A model generated the notes under the pieces. The model saw only the letters and a list, made by a program, of their open reading frames with translations, searched no databases and was not told the origin of the DNA. A stretch of DNA of 64,000 bases, from assembly GCA_030154085.1 (NCBI GenBank), contig JASKKR010000008.1:1-64000 (forward strand), given 5' to 3'. The translations under genes were made by a program, and so were the position numbers. Of this stretch, positions 7,896 through 20,371 are shown piece by piece (positions within the stretch are counted from its first letter, which is position 1; the number at the start of each line of letters is the position of its first letter). This DNA is from Candidatus Cloacimonadota bacterium (GTDB lineage: Bacteria > Cloacimonadota > Cloacimonadia > Cloacimonadales > Cloacimonadaceae).

Positions 7896-8812
7896 GTTTT
7901 AGAAACTCCTTTAGATTTATCTCCTTTTTCTATATAAGGATGATAGTGGATATGCACATTTCGCAGTCCATTGTCAAAATAATCCAAGAGACGGCTTTCT
8001 ACGGTTTGTGAGATTTTATGTCCCTCGGCAATCGTGATGCTGCCAGGGACAGTGATGGTCATATTGATTGTATAGTATGGTCCAAAACGATGCACTCCCA
8101 ACTCTTCGATGCCTTTGACACCATCTACCATCATGGTTTGATCCAGTAATTCACGAGCAAAACCTTCTTCCGGTATCTTATCCATTAGCTCAGAGGACGA
8201 TTCCATGATGATCTCGACCCCAGTTTTGATGATGTAGAGGGCTACGATTGCCCCTGCCGCAGGATCCATCCAAAAATATCCCATACGCCCCATAATCACA
8301 CCCAAAATAACAGCTATTGACGCCATGATATCGTTCAGATGGTCATTTGTCAATGCTCTTAAGGTAGGATTATGAGTTCGTTTTGCCGTCTGTTTAGTGT
8401 AAAAATACAAAACAAGCTTCACAACTAATGTACCCAGCGCGATCACCAATGCCCAAGCAGATGCCCCTCTTCCAATCTCTGTCTTAGCAATCAATTCATA
8501 GACTGAGTTTACGCTCTCCAAGAGAATAGCGATACCGGTGGTTAGAATGAAGGCTCCCACAACAATTGCCGCGATGGATTCTAATTGGCGATGCCCATAG
8601 GGATGCTCTTTATCTGCGGGCTTTTTAGCCTGTTTCATAAAGACCTTAACCACCACATAATATACGGCATCAGAACTAGAATTTATCCCATCTGCCAAGA
8701 GTGCCGGACTATGCCCCAAAATCCCGATACTGGTTTTAAGCAGGGCTAAGATGATATTACTAACAAGCCCCAGATTCACAGCCACTGACGTAAGAAAATC
8801 TCTATCTCGCAT
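7892..8812 (-). CDS. Cation diffusion facilitator (CDF) family divalent metal exporter
   Basis: A 306-residue protein with about six membrane helices followed by a cytoplasmic alpha-beta domain, the usual CDF plan and length. Metal-site motifs are visible: LLADGINSSSDAVY in helix 2, HPYGHRQLES after helix 3, and TNDHLNDIMAS in helix 5, giving the D/D-H/D tetrad. The C-terminal domain has HxH metal-binding patterns (HIHYHPY). It should export Zn, Fe or Mn by proton antiport. It overlaps the upstream P-loop gene by 11 bases and the downstream M23 gene by four. Its substrate cannot be told from sequence. Kam enzymes use Fe-S and, in one case, cobalamin, so a link to metal balance is conceivable but unproven. 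Confidence 0.9.
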   Translation of the reverse strand: MRDRDFLTSVAVNLGLVSNIILALLKTSIGILGHSPALLADGINSSSDAVYYVVVKVFMKQAKKPADKEHPYGHRQLESIAAIVVGAFILTTGIAILLESVNSVYELIAKTEIGRGASAWALVIALGTLVVKLVLYFYTKQTAKRTHNPTLRALTNDHLNDIMASIAVILGVIMGRMGYFWMDPAAGAIVALYIIKTGVEIIMESSSELMDKIPEEGFARELLDQTMMVDGVKGIEELGVHRFGPYYTINMTITVPGSITIAEGHKISQTVESRLLDYFDNGLRNVHIHYHPYIEKGDKSKGVSKT

Positions 8813-9815
8813 TTTCTAACTCCATTGTGTCGATAAATTTCTGGTCAGGAAAGTGTTCCCGGATCGTTGTGCGGAACTTATCTGCTTCGATTGGATCCGA
8901 GGCTATCGCGGTAGAATTTAATGCAAAAGCAATTATCTTAAAGGGAATCAGACATCTCACAGATACTTTGTGCAAAAGCGTATCCAGCCTATCCTTTGAA
9001 AGTTTGAGGCATTCTGGATGCCGAACAATAAGCTCCGGCTTCAGGTCCATGATATTGCCTATTACTTTATCGTATATGTTATCTGTTATGGAAGTAGGAA
9101 TATATAGCGCAGAGACATCGTCATCAAGCAGCTCTTTAAGAGCTTTTTCATGATTGATTAAGCTTTTAAGACCGCTCTTATACCATGTGTCACCTCGTTC
9201 GATGAGAGTCTCCTCAGCATTGGGAAAGTTATCTTTGATATACTTGCTCCTGGAACTAACAGGAATGCTTTTGAGCAATAACAATCTCTGAATCTCCCCA
9301 ATGATTTCATCGAGTTTGCCAAAGCTGGCACCGATTAGAAGCAATATGGCATCCACATCGTCTTCCAAAGCAATAGACTTCCGATCTAATGATCCATCTA
9401 TAAGGATCTTTTTTGCCCCGAGAGATCTCATGGTCAGCACCATGTGCATTTGCTTCTGAACTGTGGAAGGACCCGTAATTTGAGTAGCGAGTGGAATCAT
9501 CGCCTTGGCTATATAAAGTTTGCGGCCTGTATAGATTTCAGACTTCAAAAGTTCAACTCCGCTTCCGCATTGATCCAGAGTCTGAGCATCGCAGCAGAAC
9601 AGTGCCCCGGGAGACAGATAAACCTGCGGTTTGGGAGTCTTAAATAGGCGATCCATTTCCTCCCCGTCACTTCCGGTGGAAAACACTCCCCAAGCTAGAT
9701 TGGGGGATTCTCTCAAAATGCTATTTAGGAGAGTTGTTTTCCCGGAATTTTTACTGATTCCCACTAGGGCGATGGTTTGCAATGCCCCAGTGGAAATCAA
9801 TTCTTTCATCAGCAA
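8802..9815 (-). CDS. P-loop protein of the lysine fermentation operon, candidate KamB
   Basis: About 335-337 residues; start TTG 9815 or ATG 9809, after an AAGGGAG site. A Walker A motif lies near the N-terminus (GISKNSGKTT, about 18-27). The rest is an alpha-beta protein without motifs I can name. It follows kamA by nine bases in the order kdd-kamA-this gene. In clostridia and fusobacteria kamA is followed by kamB and kamC, linked to reactivation of lysine 5,6-aminomutase, and position and size suggest KamB here. No kamC, kamD or kamE is adjacent. The operon link is seen; the KamB name is inference. It could be another nucleotide-binding maturation factor. Confidence 0.55.
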   Translation of the reverse strand: MLMKELISTGALQTIALVGISKNSGKTTLLNSILRESPNLAWGVFSTGSDGEEMDRLFKTPKPQVYLSPGALFCCDAQTLDQCGSGVELLKSEIYTGRKLYIAKAMIPLATQITGPSTVQKQMHMVLTMRSLGAKKILIDGSLDRKSIALEDDVDAILLLIGASFGKLDEIIGEIQRLLLLKSIPVSSRSKYIKDNFPNAEETLIERGDTWYKSGLKSLINHEKALKELLDDDVSALYIPTSITDNIYDKVIGNIMDLKPELIVRHPECLKLSKDRLDTLLHKVSVRCLIPFKIIAFALNSTAIASDPIEADKFRTTIREHFPDQKFIDTMELENAR

Positions 9816-9824
9816 AATACTCCC

Positions 9825-11069
9825 TTATCGTTTACGACGGTTATTTCTTCCTGTCTCTGTGGGACCAATAGATACATTTTTGCCACGGAGCAAGCTCATC
9901 ACGCCCTCATTGCTCTTGCGCTCTTCCGAGCAGAGCCCTGTATAGGCACCAGTATCTTGATATTCATATCCAGGCTCCGTATAACTGGTGATGAAGCCTT
10001 CATAATTTCTCAAGATTACTCGTCCTGGCATTTGTGAAATGACATAGTTTGGCATCACTGGGATTTTGCCTCCACCACCGGGAGCATCCACCACATAGGT
10101 GGGAACGCAGAGTCCACTCGTATGCCCTCGCAGGGATTCGATGATCTCGATCCCTTTCGATATAGGAGTGCGAAAGTGGGCAATCCCTTCCGATAGATCA
10201 CATTGATAAATATAGTAGGGTCTTACTCGGTTTTTAACTAGCTTATGAACCAAGTTTTTCATCACATCCACGTGATCGTTGATACCCTTAAGTAATACAG
10301 ATTGATTGCCAATCGGTATCCCGGTCTCAGCAATTCTTGCCAGTGCAGCTGCTGCTGTATCATTGAGTTCTTGGGAATGATTAAAGTGAGTATTCAACCA
10401 CAAAAAAGGATATTTCTTCAAAACTGCCATCAGTTCTTCGGTGATGCGCATGGGTAATACGACTGGAGTGCGCGTACCGAGCCTGACTATATCAAGATGC
10501 TCGATCTGGCTGAGCTGATTTAATATCTCATCCAAACGCTCATCCCCTAAAGTCAAAGGATCACCTCCGGAAAGGATTACGTCGCGGATCTCGGTATGTT
10601 CACGTATATATTCGATAGCTTGCTCCACATTCTCCCGGGGCATGGGTGCATCGTGCTCCCCGGCTTTTCTGCGCCGAGTACAATGACGGCAATACATAGC
10701 GCATTGGTCTGTAAGCAGCAAAAGTACTCTATCCGGATAGCGATGGGTCATTCCTGGCACGGGAGAATCTGCATCTTCATGCAGCGGATCTGCCATGTCG
10801 GAAGCATCAACTTCACTCTCAAAGATGCGAGGTATTGCTTGCGCGCGCACGGGATCGTTGGGATTGTCTTGATCGATCAAAGATAGATAATATGGAGTAA
10901 TCGCCATACGAAACGAAAATCCTTCCTTGGCAAATACTGCCTCCTCTTCTGGAAGCAGTCTAATGTATTTGCGCAGCTCTTCCGCGGTAGTGATCCGGTG
11001 TTTTAGCTGCCAGTGCCAATCATTCCACTCTTTCTCAGTGGCTATTGTGCGGATATCTATAGTGCTCAT
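9825..11069 (-). CDS. kamA: L-lysine 2,3-aminomutase (radical SAM, PLP)
   Basis: Converts L-lysine to L-beta-lysine, the first step of lysine fermentation. Length 414 residues, normal for the family. The radical SAM cluster motif is CAMYCRHC (C123, C127, C130), and the PLP lysine is K335 in DAPGGGGKIPV. The GGD of the SAM-binding loop (LSGGDPLTL) is also present. An AAGGAG site lies before ATG 11069. It sits nine bases after kdd and nine before the P-loop gene, clearly one transcription unit. The C-terminal tail past about 370 is basic and variable. Being next to kdd makes a catabolic enzyme far more likely than an EpmB or beta-lysine osmolyte enzyme. Confidence 0.95.
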   Translation of the reverse strand: MSTIDIRTIATEKEWNDWHWQLKHRITTAEELRKYIRLLPEEEAVFAKEGFSFRMAITPYYLSLIDQDNPNDPVRAQAIPRIFESEVDASDMADPLHEDADSPVPGMTHRYPDRVLLLLTDQCAMYCRHCTRRRKAGEHDAPMPRENVEQAIEYIREHTEIRDVILSGGDPLTLGDERLDEILNQLSQIEHLDIVRLGTRTPVVLPMRITEELMAVLKKYPFLWLNTHFNHSQELNDTAAAALARIAETGIPIGNQSVLLKGINDHVDVMKNLVHKLVKNRVRPYYIYQCDLSEGIAHFRTPISKGIEIIESLRGHTSGLCVPTYVVDAPGGGGKIPVMPNYVISQMPGRVILRNYEGFITSYTEPGYEYQDTGAYTGLCSEERKSNEGVMSLLRGKNVSIGPTETGRNNRRKR

Positions 11070-11078
11070 GTTCTCTCC

Positions 11079-12137
11079 TTAATCAGTATACCTTTCCTTG
11101 AAGAGCTTCATCAAGACCGGTTTGCGGCGAAGAAGATCAAGGGCAATCATGGCATGATTGTGAGCATAACCATTACCAAGGATCATATCCACGTCCGCTC
11201 CGATTCCTTCAGCTCCCAAAGCCGCCTTTGTAAAGGAGGTGGCCATTGAGAAAAAATATACCAATCCACGATCTCGTGCTGCCATGATGGACGGCAGCTC
11301 CGTGTCTTCGATGTTCACCACGTTTATCACTACATCAGCCATCTTGCCATCGGTCAAGCGAGATACTTCTTTTTGGATAGTGATAGCATCCGTCGCATCA
11401 GCAATGATCACTTCGTGACACCCAGTTTCTTTGCAAGTAGGGATATAATTCTCATTTCTCACGACGCCAATGACTTTCCCTGATACTCCAGCACGCTCTC
11501 TCGCCACAGCATTGCAGAGGACACCACTCTTACCATTAGCGCCGATAATGACAACATTATCTCCTGGGCGCACCAATCTTTCCACTTGAGCTGGAGCTCC
11601 TGCCACATCAAGAACGGATAGAGCTAGATTTTCATCCATATCATCTGGCAGTTTTGCATAGATACCACTAGAAAAGAGGATAGCATTCCCTTCTATCTCC
11701 AACTGATCTTTGTCTAAAAGAACTTTTTTTACTTTCCTGATCTTCAAAGGAGTAAGCGAGAGGGATACCAAACTGGCAATTTTGTCCCCCACTTGGATTT
11801 TTTCTTTCATTTCAAATTTAGGACCAATCTGTGCCACTCTGCCAATCAGCATTCCGCCACTGCCGGTATCTTCATTTTTATGCTTTCCGGTGCGTTCGGT
11901 AAGATCAATTGCATGCTCGGCAAAAGCCTTTTCAAGATCTTTATGACCTTGTGCTATCAATTTATTTTTGATCTGATGAAAAGATGCACTATCCACATTC
12001 AGACGGATCACATCGATTAATAGTTCATTGTCCCATATTTCGGACATATCATTGTCTAAGACTCTTGCGGGTTGGGGCAAAACACCCTTTGGTTCTACTA
12101 CACGGTGAGTTCCATAGCGACATCCGCCAGTTTTCAT
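11079..12137 (-). CDS. kdd: L-erythro-3,5-diaminohexanoate dehydrogenase
   Basis: Oxidatively deaminates 3,5-diaminohexanoate with NAD(P)+ in the lysine fermentation pathway. The protein has 352 residues, begins with the family signature GGCRYGTHRVVEPKGVLPQ, and carries a Rossmann nucleotide site VVIIGANGKSG near residue 195. GGAGG lies six bases before ATG 12137. It heads the minus-strand run kdd-kamA-P-loop-CDF-M23 and has a good promoter at 12193-12220. The downstream pathway genes kce, kal and the 5,6-aminomutase genes kamD/kamE are not in the window. Confidence 0.93.
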   Translation of the reverse strand: MKTGGCRYGTHRVVEPKGVLPQPARVLDNDMSEIWDNELLIDVIRLNVDSASFHQIKNKLIAQGHKDLEKAFAEHAIDLTERTGKHKNEDTGSGGMLIGRVAQIGPKFEMKEKIQVGDKIASLVSLSLTPLKIRKVKKVLLDKDQLEIEGNAILFSSGIYAKLPDDMDENLALSVLDVAGAPAQVERLVRPGDNVVIIGANGKSGVLCNAVARERAGVSGKVIGVVRNENYIPTCKETGCHEVIIADATDAITIQKEVSRLTDGKMADVVINVVNIEDTELPSIMAARDRGLVYFFSMATSFTKAALGAEGIGADVDMILGNGYAHNHAMIALDLLRRKPVLMKLFKERYTD

Positions 12138-16392: not shown

Positions 16393-17298
16393 TTAAGGTT
16401 CCTGCAATCCAGACGCTATGACCTCTGAGAATATCTGAGCACCATTATAGTTGAGATGATCATAATCAAAAAACATGGAATCAGGCAAAGAAATATGACT
16501 ATAATCAAGAAATTTAAAGTCATGCTTTCTGTTTGCGATGATCTGATAATATTGACTAGATATCTCTGTCGGAACGCGCTCAATATACTGGTCATTAAGA
16601 GGAGTATTTACTACCCAAAGGCGAATATCCTGATCCCTACACAAGGTGATAAACTCATTAAAATAGTGGACGCGAAGTGGGGAGAAATCGCGCAGCTCTT
16701 TGCCCACAAAATAGTGCCTTTGTATAGCCTTATGCAAAGACCTTAAGTCCCCGATAGCAGATCCCTCGCGGCGATCATAGGCACCATAATAGTCCAAAGG
16801 TCCGTGAAGCAGCACAAAGTCATTCAGAATGCCAACTGGAATATAATCCGGCATGATGATATTAGTAAGATAATAATAGTAAACGCTTGCATCTGCTTCT
16901 TGAAAAGCGAACTTTGCTTTATAAAAATCTTTATCCAAGAGAGGATGATAACGCTTCATCATCTCGCTTTGTGAATCTTTAGGAGCGAGGAAATTGAAAA
17001 AACTGCAAGTCAGGATCAGATCCTTTGGCTTTAGTCCTACTCTGAGGGCATGCAGTAATTTATAATAGCTAAATTCCAATTCTTCTCCAACTTGTGCCCA
17101 GTTTGCAGAAAAGGGAATATATTGGGGATCAATCCCGGCTACAGCATGTGAATCACCCAAAATGAGCACTCGGGTTTCTTCCTCTGACGGGAACTCAGTG
17201 GATATCCTCTCTTCTCGTCTGGCTCTTATAGATTGCGCTAAATATCCCATGGATATCAAAAGCAAAATAATCAGAAGAATCTTACTAAAAACCCGCAT
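16393..17298 (-). CDS. Membrane-anchored SGNH/AlgX-like protein of an O-acylation cassette
   Basis: Start chosen at ATG 17298 (301 residues), which begins directly with a membrane anchor (MRVFSKILLIILLLISMGYL). Block I of the SGNH hydrolase fold is LILGDSHAVAGIDP, with Ser at about residue 48, and the C-terminal Asp-His pair is in FFDYDHLNYNGA. Proteins like this work with MBOAT acyltransferases as AlgX/AlgJ or DltD do, placing acyl groups on polymers in the periplasm. The start overlaps the MBOAT gene by 14 bases. A catalytic triad is present by eye, which favours an active enzyme. The acceptor polymer is not known. Confidence 0.75.
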   Translation of the reverse strand: MRVFSKILLIILLLISMGYLAQSIRARREERISTEFPSEEETRVLILGDSHAVAGIDPQYIPFSANWAQVGEELEFSYYKLLHALRVGLKPKDLILTCSFFNFLAPKDSQSEMMKRYHPLLDKDFYKAKFAFQEADASVYYYYLTNIIMPDYIPVGILNDFVLLHGPLDYYGAYDRREGSAIGDLRSLHKAIQRHYFVGKELRDFSPLRVHYFNEFITLCRDQDIRLWVVNTPLNDQYIERVPTEISSQYYQIIANRKHDFKFLDYSHISLPDSMFFDYDHLNYNGAQIFSEVIASGLQEP

Positions 17299-18652
17299 AG
17301 ATAAACCCAGTATACACGGCACAATGAGAGATCAAGACCAAGATCAAAGTATAGACTGTATATTCAAAGCGCCAGTGAATCTTTGATAATATGTCCGAGA
17401 ACTTACGGAAAAGATCTTGCAGAAAGACCAGCAGTATAAAAGTAAACGGGATCAAGATCAATGCCCAAGGATCCATAAATATTCTTACTGCTAAGCGGAA
17501 ACCATAAGCACGGAAGCTAAGCCAACCAAAGAATACAAAGAAGATCGTCAAAGGCATACCAAAGCGATTCATAAAATAATTAAGCCGTTTCTTGGCTTGT
17601 GGTCTGGCTTTACGCTTTATCTGCAGATAGACTTGAAAAGCCGATAATCCCAGACCATGCCAAATGCCCCACAATAAATATCGGCTATCCGCATCATGCC
17701 ACAATCCACAAAGTGCCATCGATATCACTGGAACCAAGAAAATGCTCCAAAATTTACGTCTGTTAAGACGTGAAAGAGGAAAAAAGAGATAGTCTCGAAT
17801 CCAATCTGATAAGGAGATATGCCACTTCCGCCAAAATTGACTGATATTGCCTGCCAGATATGGGCGATCGAAGTTTTCCATGATGCGTATTCCAAACAAC
17901 CTGGAAGACCCGATTGCAATATCACTATAAGCTGAAAAATCAAAATAGATCATAAAAGCATAGGCAAAGAGGGCTGCTAATGCCTGTAAAGATGAGTAAG
18001 AATTTGGATTCTCCCAAACTGGTGTAAGAAAGTATGCCAGCCAGTTACTTATTACAAGTTTTTTGAAAATCCCGACAGCAATGCGTCTGGATCCTTCTTG
18101 CCAATCTTTGATGTCCATCTTTGCTACATTCCGGAGCTGAGGGGAAAAGCGTTCATATCGTTCTATCGGACCTGCCAGAAAGATAGTAAAGAAACTGCTA
18201 TATAAGATGAAATCATCAAATCTGCCGGGTGATATCATTCTCCATTTAATGTCGGTGAGATAGCTAATATGTTTGAAGGTAAGATAGCTAATACCCAATG
18301 GTAAGAAGAGTTGGTGCAGGCTAAAATTGGGGAGCTCTTCCAAAAATAGGTAAACCGCTTCTGAGATCCCGCTGAGCATACCTAAATACTTGAATAAGAT
18401 GAGCACTAACAAGATCCCAAGCACTCCTACCCCATGAAATACGCTCTCATTCGGATGACGATGAATAAGCCAACCAAAAGCATATGTATACAAAGATAAT
18501 CCAATGACAACTACCACAGACATTGGTTCCAGCAGCCAGATAAAAAGCAAGCTACACAAGCTGAGAGATAAAACTCTGAGCCTGCTATTTTGAAAACACC
18601 AATACAGTGCTAAACTTGCCACTAGAATCCCAAAATATTCAAGCGTTATCAT
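17285..18652 (-). CDS. MBOAT-family O-acyltransferase (DltB/AlgI-like)
   Basis: A membrane protein of 455 residues with roughly eleven hydrophobic segments. The MBOAT signature is present: FWRKWHISLSDWIRDY near residue 275 and the active-site His in GLWHDADSRYLLWGIWHG near 315. These proteins carry an activated acyl group across the membrane and pass it to an extracellular polymer. It lies between an acyl carrier protein gene (82 bases upstream) and an SGNH-like gene (overlapping), a layout resembling dltB-dltC-dltD. No ligase like DltA is adjacent. The acyl donor could be an acyl-ACP from the neighbour. Confidence 0.9.
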   Translation of the reverse strand: MITLEYFGILVASLALYWCFQNSRLRVLSLSLCSLLFIWLLEPMSVVVVIGLSLYTYAFGWLIHRHPNESVFHGVGVLGILLVLILFKYLGMLSGISEAVYLFLEELPNFSLHQLFLPLGISYLTFKHISYLTDIKWRMISPGRFDDFILYSSFFTIFLAGPIERYERFSPQLRNVAKMDIKDWQEGSRRIAVGIFKKLVISNWLAYFLTPVWENPNSYSSLQALAALFAYAFMIYFDFSAYSDIAIGSSRLFGIRIMENFDRPYLAGNISQFWRKWHISLSDWIRDYLFFPLSRLNRRKFWSIFLVPVISMALCGLWHDADSRYLLWGIWHGLGLSAFQVYLQIKRKARPQAKKRLNYFMNRFGMPLTIFFVFFGWLSFRAYGFRLAVRIFMDPWALILIPFTFILLVFLQDLFRKFSDILSKIHWRFEYTVYTLILVLISHCAVYTGFIYAGF

Positions 18653-18734
18653 AAAATATGCAGTATTATCTGGTTATGATCGGTAACTTCCTAACATCTA
18701 CCTTATGTTATCCTTTTTTTCAGTTTTAAAATAA

Positions 18735-18965
18735 TCAAAATTGCTTGATGATCTCTACCATCTGCCTGATGCTATCAAATGATTCTGCTGTAATCCGAGG
18801 GGCTGGAATCCGTTTGCCAAATTCTTGTTCTATATAGCTCTGCAAAGAAACTAAAGAAAAAGAATCTATAAGCCCACTTGAGATTAGCTTTGTGTCTATG
18901 TCTATTTCTTGATCAGGATCTTCCAAAAACTCTTCCCGAATAAATTCCAAAAGTTTGTCTTCCAT
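18735..18965 (-). CDS. Acyl carrier protein, stand-alone
   Basis: A 76-residue four-helix carrier. The phosphopantetheine attachment Ser is S35 in SSGLIDSFSLVSL, which matches the D-S-(F/L) motif better for DltC-like or specialised carriers than the DSLD of fatty-acid AcpP. It lies 14 bases after kbl and 82 before the MBOAT gene on the same strand. It probably carries an acyl or aminoacyl group for the MBOAT step, rather than serving bulk fatty acid synthesis. Confidence 0.88.
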   Translation of the reverse strand: MEDKLLEFIREEFLEDPDQEIDIDTKLISSGLIDSFSLVSLQSYIEQEFGKRIPAPRITAESFDSIRQMVEIIKQF

Positions 18966-18979
18966 GTCTTTCTCCTAAA

Positions 18980-20227
18980 CTACTTATTATGCATCGACAA
19001 AAGCTCTTCCTTGCTCTTGCCCAATATATCCAATTCTTTGCCAACCTTGATGAATTTGGCAAGGGCTATTTCCAAGTGCTCCGGATTGTGGGCGGCAGAT
19101 AACTGAGTGCGAATGCGCGCTTGATTTTTTGGTACAACCGGGAAAGAAAAAGCTACCGCATGAACCCCTTCAGCAAAGAGTCTTTTTGCAAATTCTTGTG
19201 CAAGAACAGCGTCATATAACATGATTGGTACAATTGGAGATTCTCCTGGCACCACGATAAATCCTGCAGCTACCAGTTCTTTTCGCCACCACTGCATATT
19301 TTGCTTAAGCTTCTTTCGCAAAGAATCATCTTGCTCGATCAGATTCAAGGCTTGGAGGGTGGTTATAGTCATCATCGGGGCAAGGCTGTTTGAGAAAAGA
19401 TAGGGACGACCACGCTGTCTAAGAAGTTCTACCAAGTCTTTCCTCCCAGCTACACAGCCACCAGAAGCGCCACCCAAGGCTTTGCCAAAGGTCGTGGTGA
19501 TGAGATCTATCTTGCCAAATACCCCACAGAGCTCATGACTCCCTCGCCCATTTTCACCCAAAAAACCTGTAGCATGAGAGTCATCCAAAAAGACCATAGC
19601 ATTATGTTTCTCAGCCAGATCTACGATTGTCTGTAGCTTGGCAATATCTCCATCCATGGAAAACACGCCATCGGTAACGATAATCTTACCGTGTCTGTCA
19701 TGATACATTTGTAGCTTTTTCTCTAAATGCAGCATATCAGAATGCTTGTAAGTATCATGGCTAGCACGCGATAGCCTCATACCATCGATTATCGAGGCAT
19801 GTACCAAACGATCCGAGATCATGATGTCTTCTTCCATCATGAGCGTTTCAAAGACCGCTGCATTGGCATCAAAACAGGAGCTGAAGAGAATGCAATCTTC
19901 AGTACCTAAGAAAGTACTCATCCGCTGCTCCAATTCCTTGTGTGTATCCTGAGTCCCACAAATAAAACGTACAGACGCCATCCCATATCCTCGTCTGTCA
20001 AGAGCTTCATGCGCAGCTTTCAGGATATCTGGATGAGCAGCCAAGCCAAGATAGTTATTTGAACACATGTTGATCTTGCGCGCTTCCCCCGAATTATCAG
20101 AACTCTTTATGTGGATTTCTGCTCCCTGTAATCCGGTGATCTGAACTTCCTCTTTGTTGAGCCCTTGATCCTGTATATCATTGAGGATGTCCCGATATCT
20201 CTTTTGCAGTGCTATCGAATATGCCAT
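18980..20227 (-). CDS. kbl: Glycine C-acetyltransferase (2-amino-3-ketobutyrate CoA ligase)
   Basis: A PLP enzyme of 415 residues from ATG 20227, which follows GGGGGAG; an upstream TTG at 20242 has no ribosome site. Family landmarks match Kbl closely: CSNNYLGLA, SVRFICGTQD, DGVFSMDGDI, DDSHATGFLG, the PLP lysine K249 in TTFGKALGG, and RPYLFSNSLAP. Kbl interconverts 2-amino-3-oxobutyrate plus CoA with glycine plus acetyl-CoA in threonine breakdown. No threonine dehydrogenase gene is next to it; instead it is followed by an acyl carrier protein. The same fold makes 3-ketosphinganine-like products from acyl thioesters, so an acyl-ACP substrate is an alternative, but residue likeness favours Kbl. 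Confidence 0.85.
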   Translation of the reverse strand: MAYSIALQKRYRDILNDIQDQGLNKEEVQITGLQGAEIHIKSSDNSGEARKINMCSNNYLGLAAHPDILKAAHEALDRRGYGMASVRFICGTQDTHKELEQRMSTFLGTEDCILFSSCFDANAAVFETLMMEEDIMISDRLVHASIIDGMRLSRASHDTYKHSDMLHLEKKLQMYHDRHGKIIVTDGVFSMDGDIAKLQTIVDLAEKHNAMVFLDDSHATGFLGENGRGSHELCGVFGKIDLITTTFGKALGGASGGCVAGRKDLVELLRQRGRPYLFSNSLAPMMTITTLQALNLIEQDDSLRKKLKQNMQWWRKELVAAGFIVVPGESPIVPIMLYDAVLAQEFAKRLFAEGVHAVAFSFPVVPKNQARIRTQLSAAHNPEHLEIALAKFIKVGKELDILGKSKEELLSMHNK

Positions 20228-20371
20228 TGACTCCCCCTTCAAATTTATTTTTTGTATGAAGAATTAAAATCGATGCCTGTATGACATCAGAGCCTGCTGG
20301 TCTTGTGGAATAGAACTACATGCTGGTAAGCTGATAAGATAGTTGCAAGAGCTCATCACTTGCCTGCATCG

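Follow-up and report, generated by a model that had tools for sequence, protein, structure and literature searches.

The contig JASKKR010000008.1 of a Candidatus Cloacimonadota bacterium (GCA_030154085.1, genome G000) was analysed over a window of 64,000 nucleotides (nt), to which all window coordinates refer, and we describe here a minus-strand cassette of four genes within it. In order, these encode K1, a Kbl-like pyridoxal 5'-phosphate (PLP) enzyme, followed by an acyl carrier protein (ACP), an MBOAT and an SGNH protein. We propose that these genes form a Dlt-like system for surface acylation in which K1, a paralog of Kbl, would take the place of an ATP-dependent ligase and charge the ACP with acetyl for the MBOAT, and from the sequence comparisons below we give this reading a probability of about 0.55. 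The cassette is real and not an annotation artefact. All four open reading frames (ORFs) are present in the order K1-ACP-MBOAT-SGNH from 20227 to 16393, and both the order and the 14-nt spacing between K1 and the ACP gene agree with a first-pass annotation of this DNA. The ACP and MBOAT genes are 82 nt apart, and the SGNH gene, which starts with ATG, overlaps the 3' end of the MBOAT gene by 14 nt. That annotation also held that DltA is missing and that a Kbl-family enzyme occupies its place, and this extends to the whole genome: G000 (99.75% complete) contains exactly one AMP-binding ligase, which is FadD-like and located elsewhere, and no DltA was found genome-wide.

K1 is not the only Kbl of the genome. 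G000 carries three related enzymes, namely K1, a canonical Kbl (K2) adjoining rsmI at G000:C41:1072-2271 and a more distant relative with 36% identity (we label genomes G, contigs C and loci L). An SDR-type threonine dehydrogenase (TDH), assigned to its family via a relative that matches L-threonine 3-dehydrogenases best in the PDB, is encoded at G000:C36, away from the window. K1 scores above the NCBIfam cut-offs for glycine C-acetyltransferase (PRK06939, 563.6 bits versus 460; also TIGR01822), and Kbl enzymes are its closest solved relatives in the PDB. In our trees the K1 clade split from K2 with full support (100/100), and the MBOAT-linked K1 enzymes formed a subclade inside it (98/93 in one tree and 99 SH-aLRT in another). 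Judged from these trees, K1 differs from the housekeeping Kbl and is a distinct clade. One enzyme, from locus L111 (WOR-3), was first taken as K1 by identity, and the tree and residues placed it with K2.

The partner of this clade appears to be a carrier protein. An ACP gene lies on the same strand at ≤400 nt from K1 in 57 of 61 K1 loci and in 0 of 61 ordinary, K2-type Kbl loci drawn from the same scans. The four K1 loci without a near ACP comprise two that are contig-cut, the K2-like L111 and that of G018, whose ACP belongs to an MBOAT cassette at another site. Of 125 genomes from the phylum, 30 carry K1, 24 AcsA of the K1-operon type and 33 the ACP; the ACP is present in 30/30 genomes with K1 versus 3/95 others. 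These three are G006, where K1 is apparently split over contig ends, G027 (69% complete) and G121. In G121 (L175, G121:C72, 3711-8479) TDH-AcsA-ACP is followed by a different Kbl-like enzyme (435 amino acids (aa), 35% identity to K2), an apparent non-orthologous replacement of K1.

In relatives, the K1 operon has the order [SDR threonine dehydrogenase]-AcpS-AcsA-ACP-K1-[acetate transporter]-(K2)-rsmI. Its AcsA is an acetate ligase (PRK04319, 744.9 bits versus a cut-off of 729), and the transporters belong to the YaaH acetate family or form a DUF4212/SSF symporter pair. TDH adjoins the AcsA-ACP-K1 operon in about 10 genomes of the phylum and also in other phyla. A scan of named genomes revealed ACP-K1, mostly with AcsA in front and with K1 identities of about 75-89%, beyond Cloacimonadota, in metagenome-assembled genomes labelled Delongbacteria, Bacteroidota, Aminicenantes/Saccharicenans, Neomarinimicrobiota, Zixiibacteria, Elusimicrobiota, CSSED10-310 and Acidobacteria; a contig-cut K1 was found in Calditrichota. 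Trees split the ACPs into two clades (100/100), an AcsA-linked ACP_a and an MBOAT-linked ACP_b that includes the window ACP. Depending on the context, K1 is thus encoded with one or the other of two carrier proteins, in AcsA-ACP_a-K1 or in K1-ACP_b-MBOAT, which points to the carrier protein as such as its partner, and K1 is very probably an ACP-partnered enzyme. AcpS was considered as a dedicated partner and ruled out, as some TDH-AcpS-Kbl clusters have no ACP and a single AcpS was found in each genome checked. Loci L059-L066 and L068 show this TDH-AcpS-Kbl-type order with K2 or K3 enzymes and no ACP of the K1 type nearby. In L084, L090, L094 and L106 a second Kbl paralog (417-419 aa, 61-64% identity to K1) directly follows K1, and in three of these it is followed by an ORF of 1154-1225 aa.

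To define the K1 residue pattern, 59 K1 sequences were compared against K2, with positions given in the literature numbering of E. coli Kbl. The PLP lysine and the substrate residues, N50, H136, S185, K244 and R368, are kept in 59/59. Around them the K1 enzymes carry their own substitutions: N135 is replaced by Val in 58/59, an Asp is found at 151 in 57/59, R150 is replaced by His, Thr or Gln in 55/59 and R152 by Thr, Ser or Pro in 58/59. Outside the catalytic set there are further consistent differences between K1 and K2, such as F47M and M208F/L. We take R150 to correspond to Lys299 of human ALAS2, and R144 to Arg293, by our own alignment of the segment after the PLP-stacking His, with the ALAS2 residue names checked against PMC7272653. 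In ALAS2, Lys299 and Arg293 are located at the ADP and 3'-phosphoadenosine part of succinyl-coenzyme A (CoA) (PMC7272653). The loss of R150 in K1 is suggestive in that it would match loss of a CoA-contact residue. Loss of CoA contacts in AcsA was also considered as a test of ACP specificity and was uninformative, because the nearest solved enzyme of the subfamily is alike in the region inspected by eye.

The remaining genes of the cassette resemble those of the Dlt pathway. ACP_b has the PP-binding domain (PF00550) above cut-off and the DSF phosphopantetheine serine, and is weakly DltC-like. The only sequence matches of the MBOAT in the PDB are DltB, and its His319 and His332 are invariant, in keeping with the catalytic His of DltB; its score against TIGR04091 is 188 bits, under the equivalog cut-off of 375. 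For the SGNH protein, sequence-family searches gave no assignment above a cut-off. An AlphaFold model built with 12 relatives (pLDDT 91.5) has DltD (6o93) as its best match (E 1.6e-5, TM 0.49), followed by other GDSL/SGNH esterases; it supersedes a model from 3 sequences (pLDDT 57.8) that was not relied on. The GDSH and DxxH motifs are conserved, with Ser50 and His281 invariant and Asp278 nearly invariant. K1 begins at an ATG at 20227 preceded by a GGGGGAG ribosome-binding site, and its stop codon ends at 18980. The cassette is flanked by trmFO upstream and a SNF2 helicase gene downstream, and a promoter and terminator scan gave results at chance level.

Table 1 Features of the cassette in the 64,000-nt window.
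Feature	Position	Strand	Basis
K1 (415 aa), Kbl-like member of the PLP-dependent alpha-oxoamine synthases; candidate holo-ACP-dependent 2-amino-3-oxobutyrate lyase and acetyl loader	18980..20227	-	NCBIfam glycine C-acetyltransferase above cut-off; own clade; site pattern
ACP_b, dedicated acyl carrier protein, 76 aa; DSF serine is Ser35 (codon ~18861-18863)	18735..18965	-	PF00550; MBOAT-linked ACP clade 100/100
MBOAT, 455 aa; DltB-like core and C-terminal extension with acyl-shuttle motif	17285..18652	-	PF03062 above cut-off; PDB; invariant His
FIYAGF, FXYXXF acyl-Tyr shuttle motif (as in PatA/DltX) at the MBOAT C-terminus	17288..17305	-	motif match
SGNH-fold DltD-like transferase, 301 aa; N-terminal membrane helix; Ser50/Asp278/His281	16393..17298	-	model and motifs
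Terminator-like hairpin between trmFO and K1, weak	20271..20289	-	scan not above chance

The Dlt-like association of these genes is conserved in relatives, and three of them add a DltX-like microprotein in front. DltX-like proteins were found by searching for the FXYXXF acyl-Tyr shuttle motif defined in PMC12148441. They are about 50 aa long (the G060 reading frame is longer), contain a single hydrophobic stretch and have FFYANF, or a variant of it, at the C-terminus, and they occur as free microproteins in G008, G017, G018, G052, G055 and G060. In G008, G017 and G060, each from a different genus, DltX-K1-ACP precedes the MBOAT and SGNH genes (SGNH-MBOAT in G060), an order that places K1 in the slot of DltA. 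The MBOATs of these three cassettes are short, DltB-like and lack the FXYXXF motif. The window MBOAT is long and ends with FIYAGF, so that a DltX-type shuttle is fused to it in the PatA arrangement. By its gene content, then, the window cassette is a hybrid, with a carrier as in Dlt, a fused shuttle as in PatA and K1 replacing DltA. Polysaccharide-type genes (GDP-mannose dehydratase family, O-antigen ligase, cytidylyltransferase) adjoin some related cassettes, and a surface glycan as target fits these neighbours. In G055, where neither K1 nor this ACP was found, MBOAT-SGNH-DltX adjoins an O-antigen ligase gene (L058, G055:C34, 6871-9096), possibly as a CoA-using variant.

The distribution of ligases bears on how the carrier is loaded. 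The cassette MBOAT is present in 7/7 K1 genomes without AcsA (including G006 with its split gene) versus 1/24 with AcsA (Fisher p 3e-6, ignoring shared ancestry). The single positive genome is G074, in which an AcsA fragment at a contig end was counted as present. G052 has both AcsA and MBOAT, as does G073, whose decayed cassette was under the threshold.

How might K1 serve the MBOAT? The first-pass annotation had suggested that the set may build an unusual acyl or amino-ketone group and transfer it to a surface polymer. We ruled out MBOAT transfer of a Kbl-made amino-ketone on chemical grounds: in condensation, oxoamine synthases release a free aminoketone from the carrier, so only thiolysis would supply the MBOAT with an acylated ACP. 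Because an MBOAT needs an acyl thioester and a condensing oxoamine synthase uses the thioester up, a condensing K1 could not feed it. In the known catabolic direction of TDH-KBL, 2-amino-3-oxobutyrate and a thiol yield glycine and an acetyl thioester (PMC9814548). This direction would load holo-ACP directly, and we thus propose K1 as the loader in DltA's place. In the proposed pathway, TDH, encoded elsewhere in G000, would make 2-amino-3-oxobutyrate, which K1 would split into glycine and acetyl-S-ACP with the phosphopantetheine thiol of ACP_b in the role of CoA. If the later steps follow Dlt and PatAB, as homology suggests, the MBOAT would move the acyl group from ACP_b through the membrane onto Tyr452 in its FIYAGF tail, from which the DltD-like SGNH protein would pass it, via its serine, to the surface polymer. 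We infer the thiol acceptor of K1, its direction, the acyl group and the polymer target, and acetyl is the likeliest group carried.

Several observations weigh against K1 as the loader. K1 retains R144, the counterpart in the alignment of the other ALAS2 CoA-site residue, Arg293; TDH is unlinked to the window cassette; and the sequence counts above share ancestry and are not independent observations. The ACP could also be charged in trans by the FadD-like ligase; AMP ligases of similar size also occur in relatives without the cassette. The window MBOAT is orthologous to MBOATs of G011, G008 and G006 at a trmFO-linked locus that lacks K1-ACP, as in the G011 order trmFO-MBOAT-SGNH-SNF2, so K1-ACP either joined the window locus or was lost from the others, and the window arrangement may be recent. 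The first-pass annotation would have given up its link between kbl and the cassette if relatives kept kbl with threonine dehydrogenase elsewhere and ACP-MBOAT-SGNH without it. In part this is what we found, as a canonical kbl does lie elsewhere and ACP_b-MBOAT-SGNH occurs without adjacent K1 in G018, G052, G027 and, decayed, G073; but G018 and G052 carry K1 elsewhere in the genome, and in G027, at 69% completeness, no Kbl of any kind was found. In the G073 locus (L177, G073:C69, 1-1577) both ACP_b and MBOAT are frameshifted, which reflects either a decaying cassette or assembly errors.

Other roles for K1 have to be weighed against the loading of acetyl. It seems unlikely that K1 condenses an ACP-borne acyl group with glycine, sharing the acyl-ACP pool of the MBOAT while the FadD-like ligase or a transacylase of fatty acid synthesis charges the ACP. 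SPT with AcpR/AasR is an ACP-using oxoamine synthase that works in the condensing direction (PMC9386255), and AcsA, encoded beside ACP_a and adjoined by acetate transporters, could charge ACP_a with acetate. Yet the MBOAT context has no dedicated ligase, a condensing K1 in DltA's slot would be a consumer competing with the MBOAT, and cleavage is the known direction of TDH-linked Kbl (PMC9814548). Thiolysis with a non-acetyl load on ACP_b, for example propionyl from another 2-amino-3-oxoacid, would be in keeping with the differences at F47M and M208F/L seen in the alignment, but K1 shows no variation at its substrate-contact and PLP residues and is linked to genes for TDH, an acetate ligase and acetate transporters, which makes such a load rather improbable. 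That K1 is simply a CoA-dependent Kbl adjoining ACP-MBOAT-SGNH by accident would explain its score above the glycine C-acetyltransferase equivalog cut-offs and its close relationship to the Kbl enzymes in the PDB. However, linkage to an ACP recurs in the K1 clade across many phyla and in two contexts and is never seen with K2, K1 has its own residue pattern and G000 already has K2, and we regard an accident as very improbable.

Compared with known systems, the cassette shares with the Dlt pathway of teichoic acid D-alanylation (DltX-DltA-DltB-DltC-DltD) a carrier with the phosphopantetheine serine, a DltB-like MBOAT with the catalytic His, a DltD-like SGNH protein and the FXYXXF shuttle and, in the three relatives with the microprotein, an operon headed by DltX and the loader. 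It differs in that the D-alanine:carrier ligase DltA is absent, with a Kbl-family PLP enzyme in that slot, and in that the DltX motif of the window is fused to the MBOAT; D-alanine is an unlikely acyl group. PatA/PatB peptidoglycan O-acetylation (PMC12148441) likewise combines an MBOAT carrying a C-terminal FXYXXF with an SGNH transferase, and probably shares the acetyl group, but PatA uses acetyl-CoA and no carrier, whereas here a loader and a dedicated ACP, lying between K1 and MBOAT, are encoded. The cassette falls outside the definition of Dlt in lacking DltA and outside that of PatAB in encoding a carrier, and yet would work like both. The trio of ligase, dedicated ACP and oxoamine synthase in bacterial sphingolipid synthesis, AasR-AcpR-SPT (PMC9386255), resembles AcsA-ACP_a-K1 of the relatives, while the window lineage has no ligase. 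That system joins long-chain acyl groups to serine in the condensing direction without an MBOAT, whereas the K1 trio would be short-chain, is tied to TDH and possibly runs in the other direction. With TDH-KBL threonine degradation K1 shares the enzyme family, the conserved substrate residues and the TDH linkage of its clade; it differs in that a carrier protein would stand in for CoA and in that K1 coexists with the canonical enzyme. In the open-access literature, which misses most subscription papers, neither K1 arrangement was found described.

Elsewhere in the window, on the minus strand at 8802-12137, are genes for a KamB-like reactivase, a lysine 2,3-aminomutase-like enzyme and L-erythro-3,5-diaminohexanoate dehydrogenase. 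These are lysine fermentation genes and are consistent with an amino-acid fermenter.

The known ways of charging a carrier protein use, to our knowledge, ligases, acyltransferases or condensing enzymes. Our wider proposal, which we hold tentatively and at slightly less than even odds, is that a PLP-dependent C–C thiolysis enzyme rather than an ATP-ligase charges a carrier with threonine-derived acetyl for surface export, and that the same clade serves an uncharacterised carrier-based threonine/acetate pathway (TDH-AcpS-AcsA-ACP-K1) in about 10 phyla. If so, carrier loading by retro-Claisen cleavage of a 2-amino-3-oxoacid derived from an amino acid would open a new route that needs neither ATP nor CoA, and amino-acid fermentation would be tied directly to modification of the cell surface. 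The "glycine C-acetyltransferase" annotations in about 10 phyla also include a separate, ACP-linked enzyme, which should not be taken for one of ordinary threonine catabolism.

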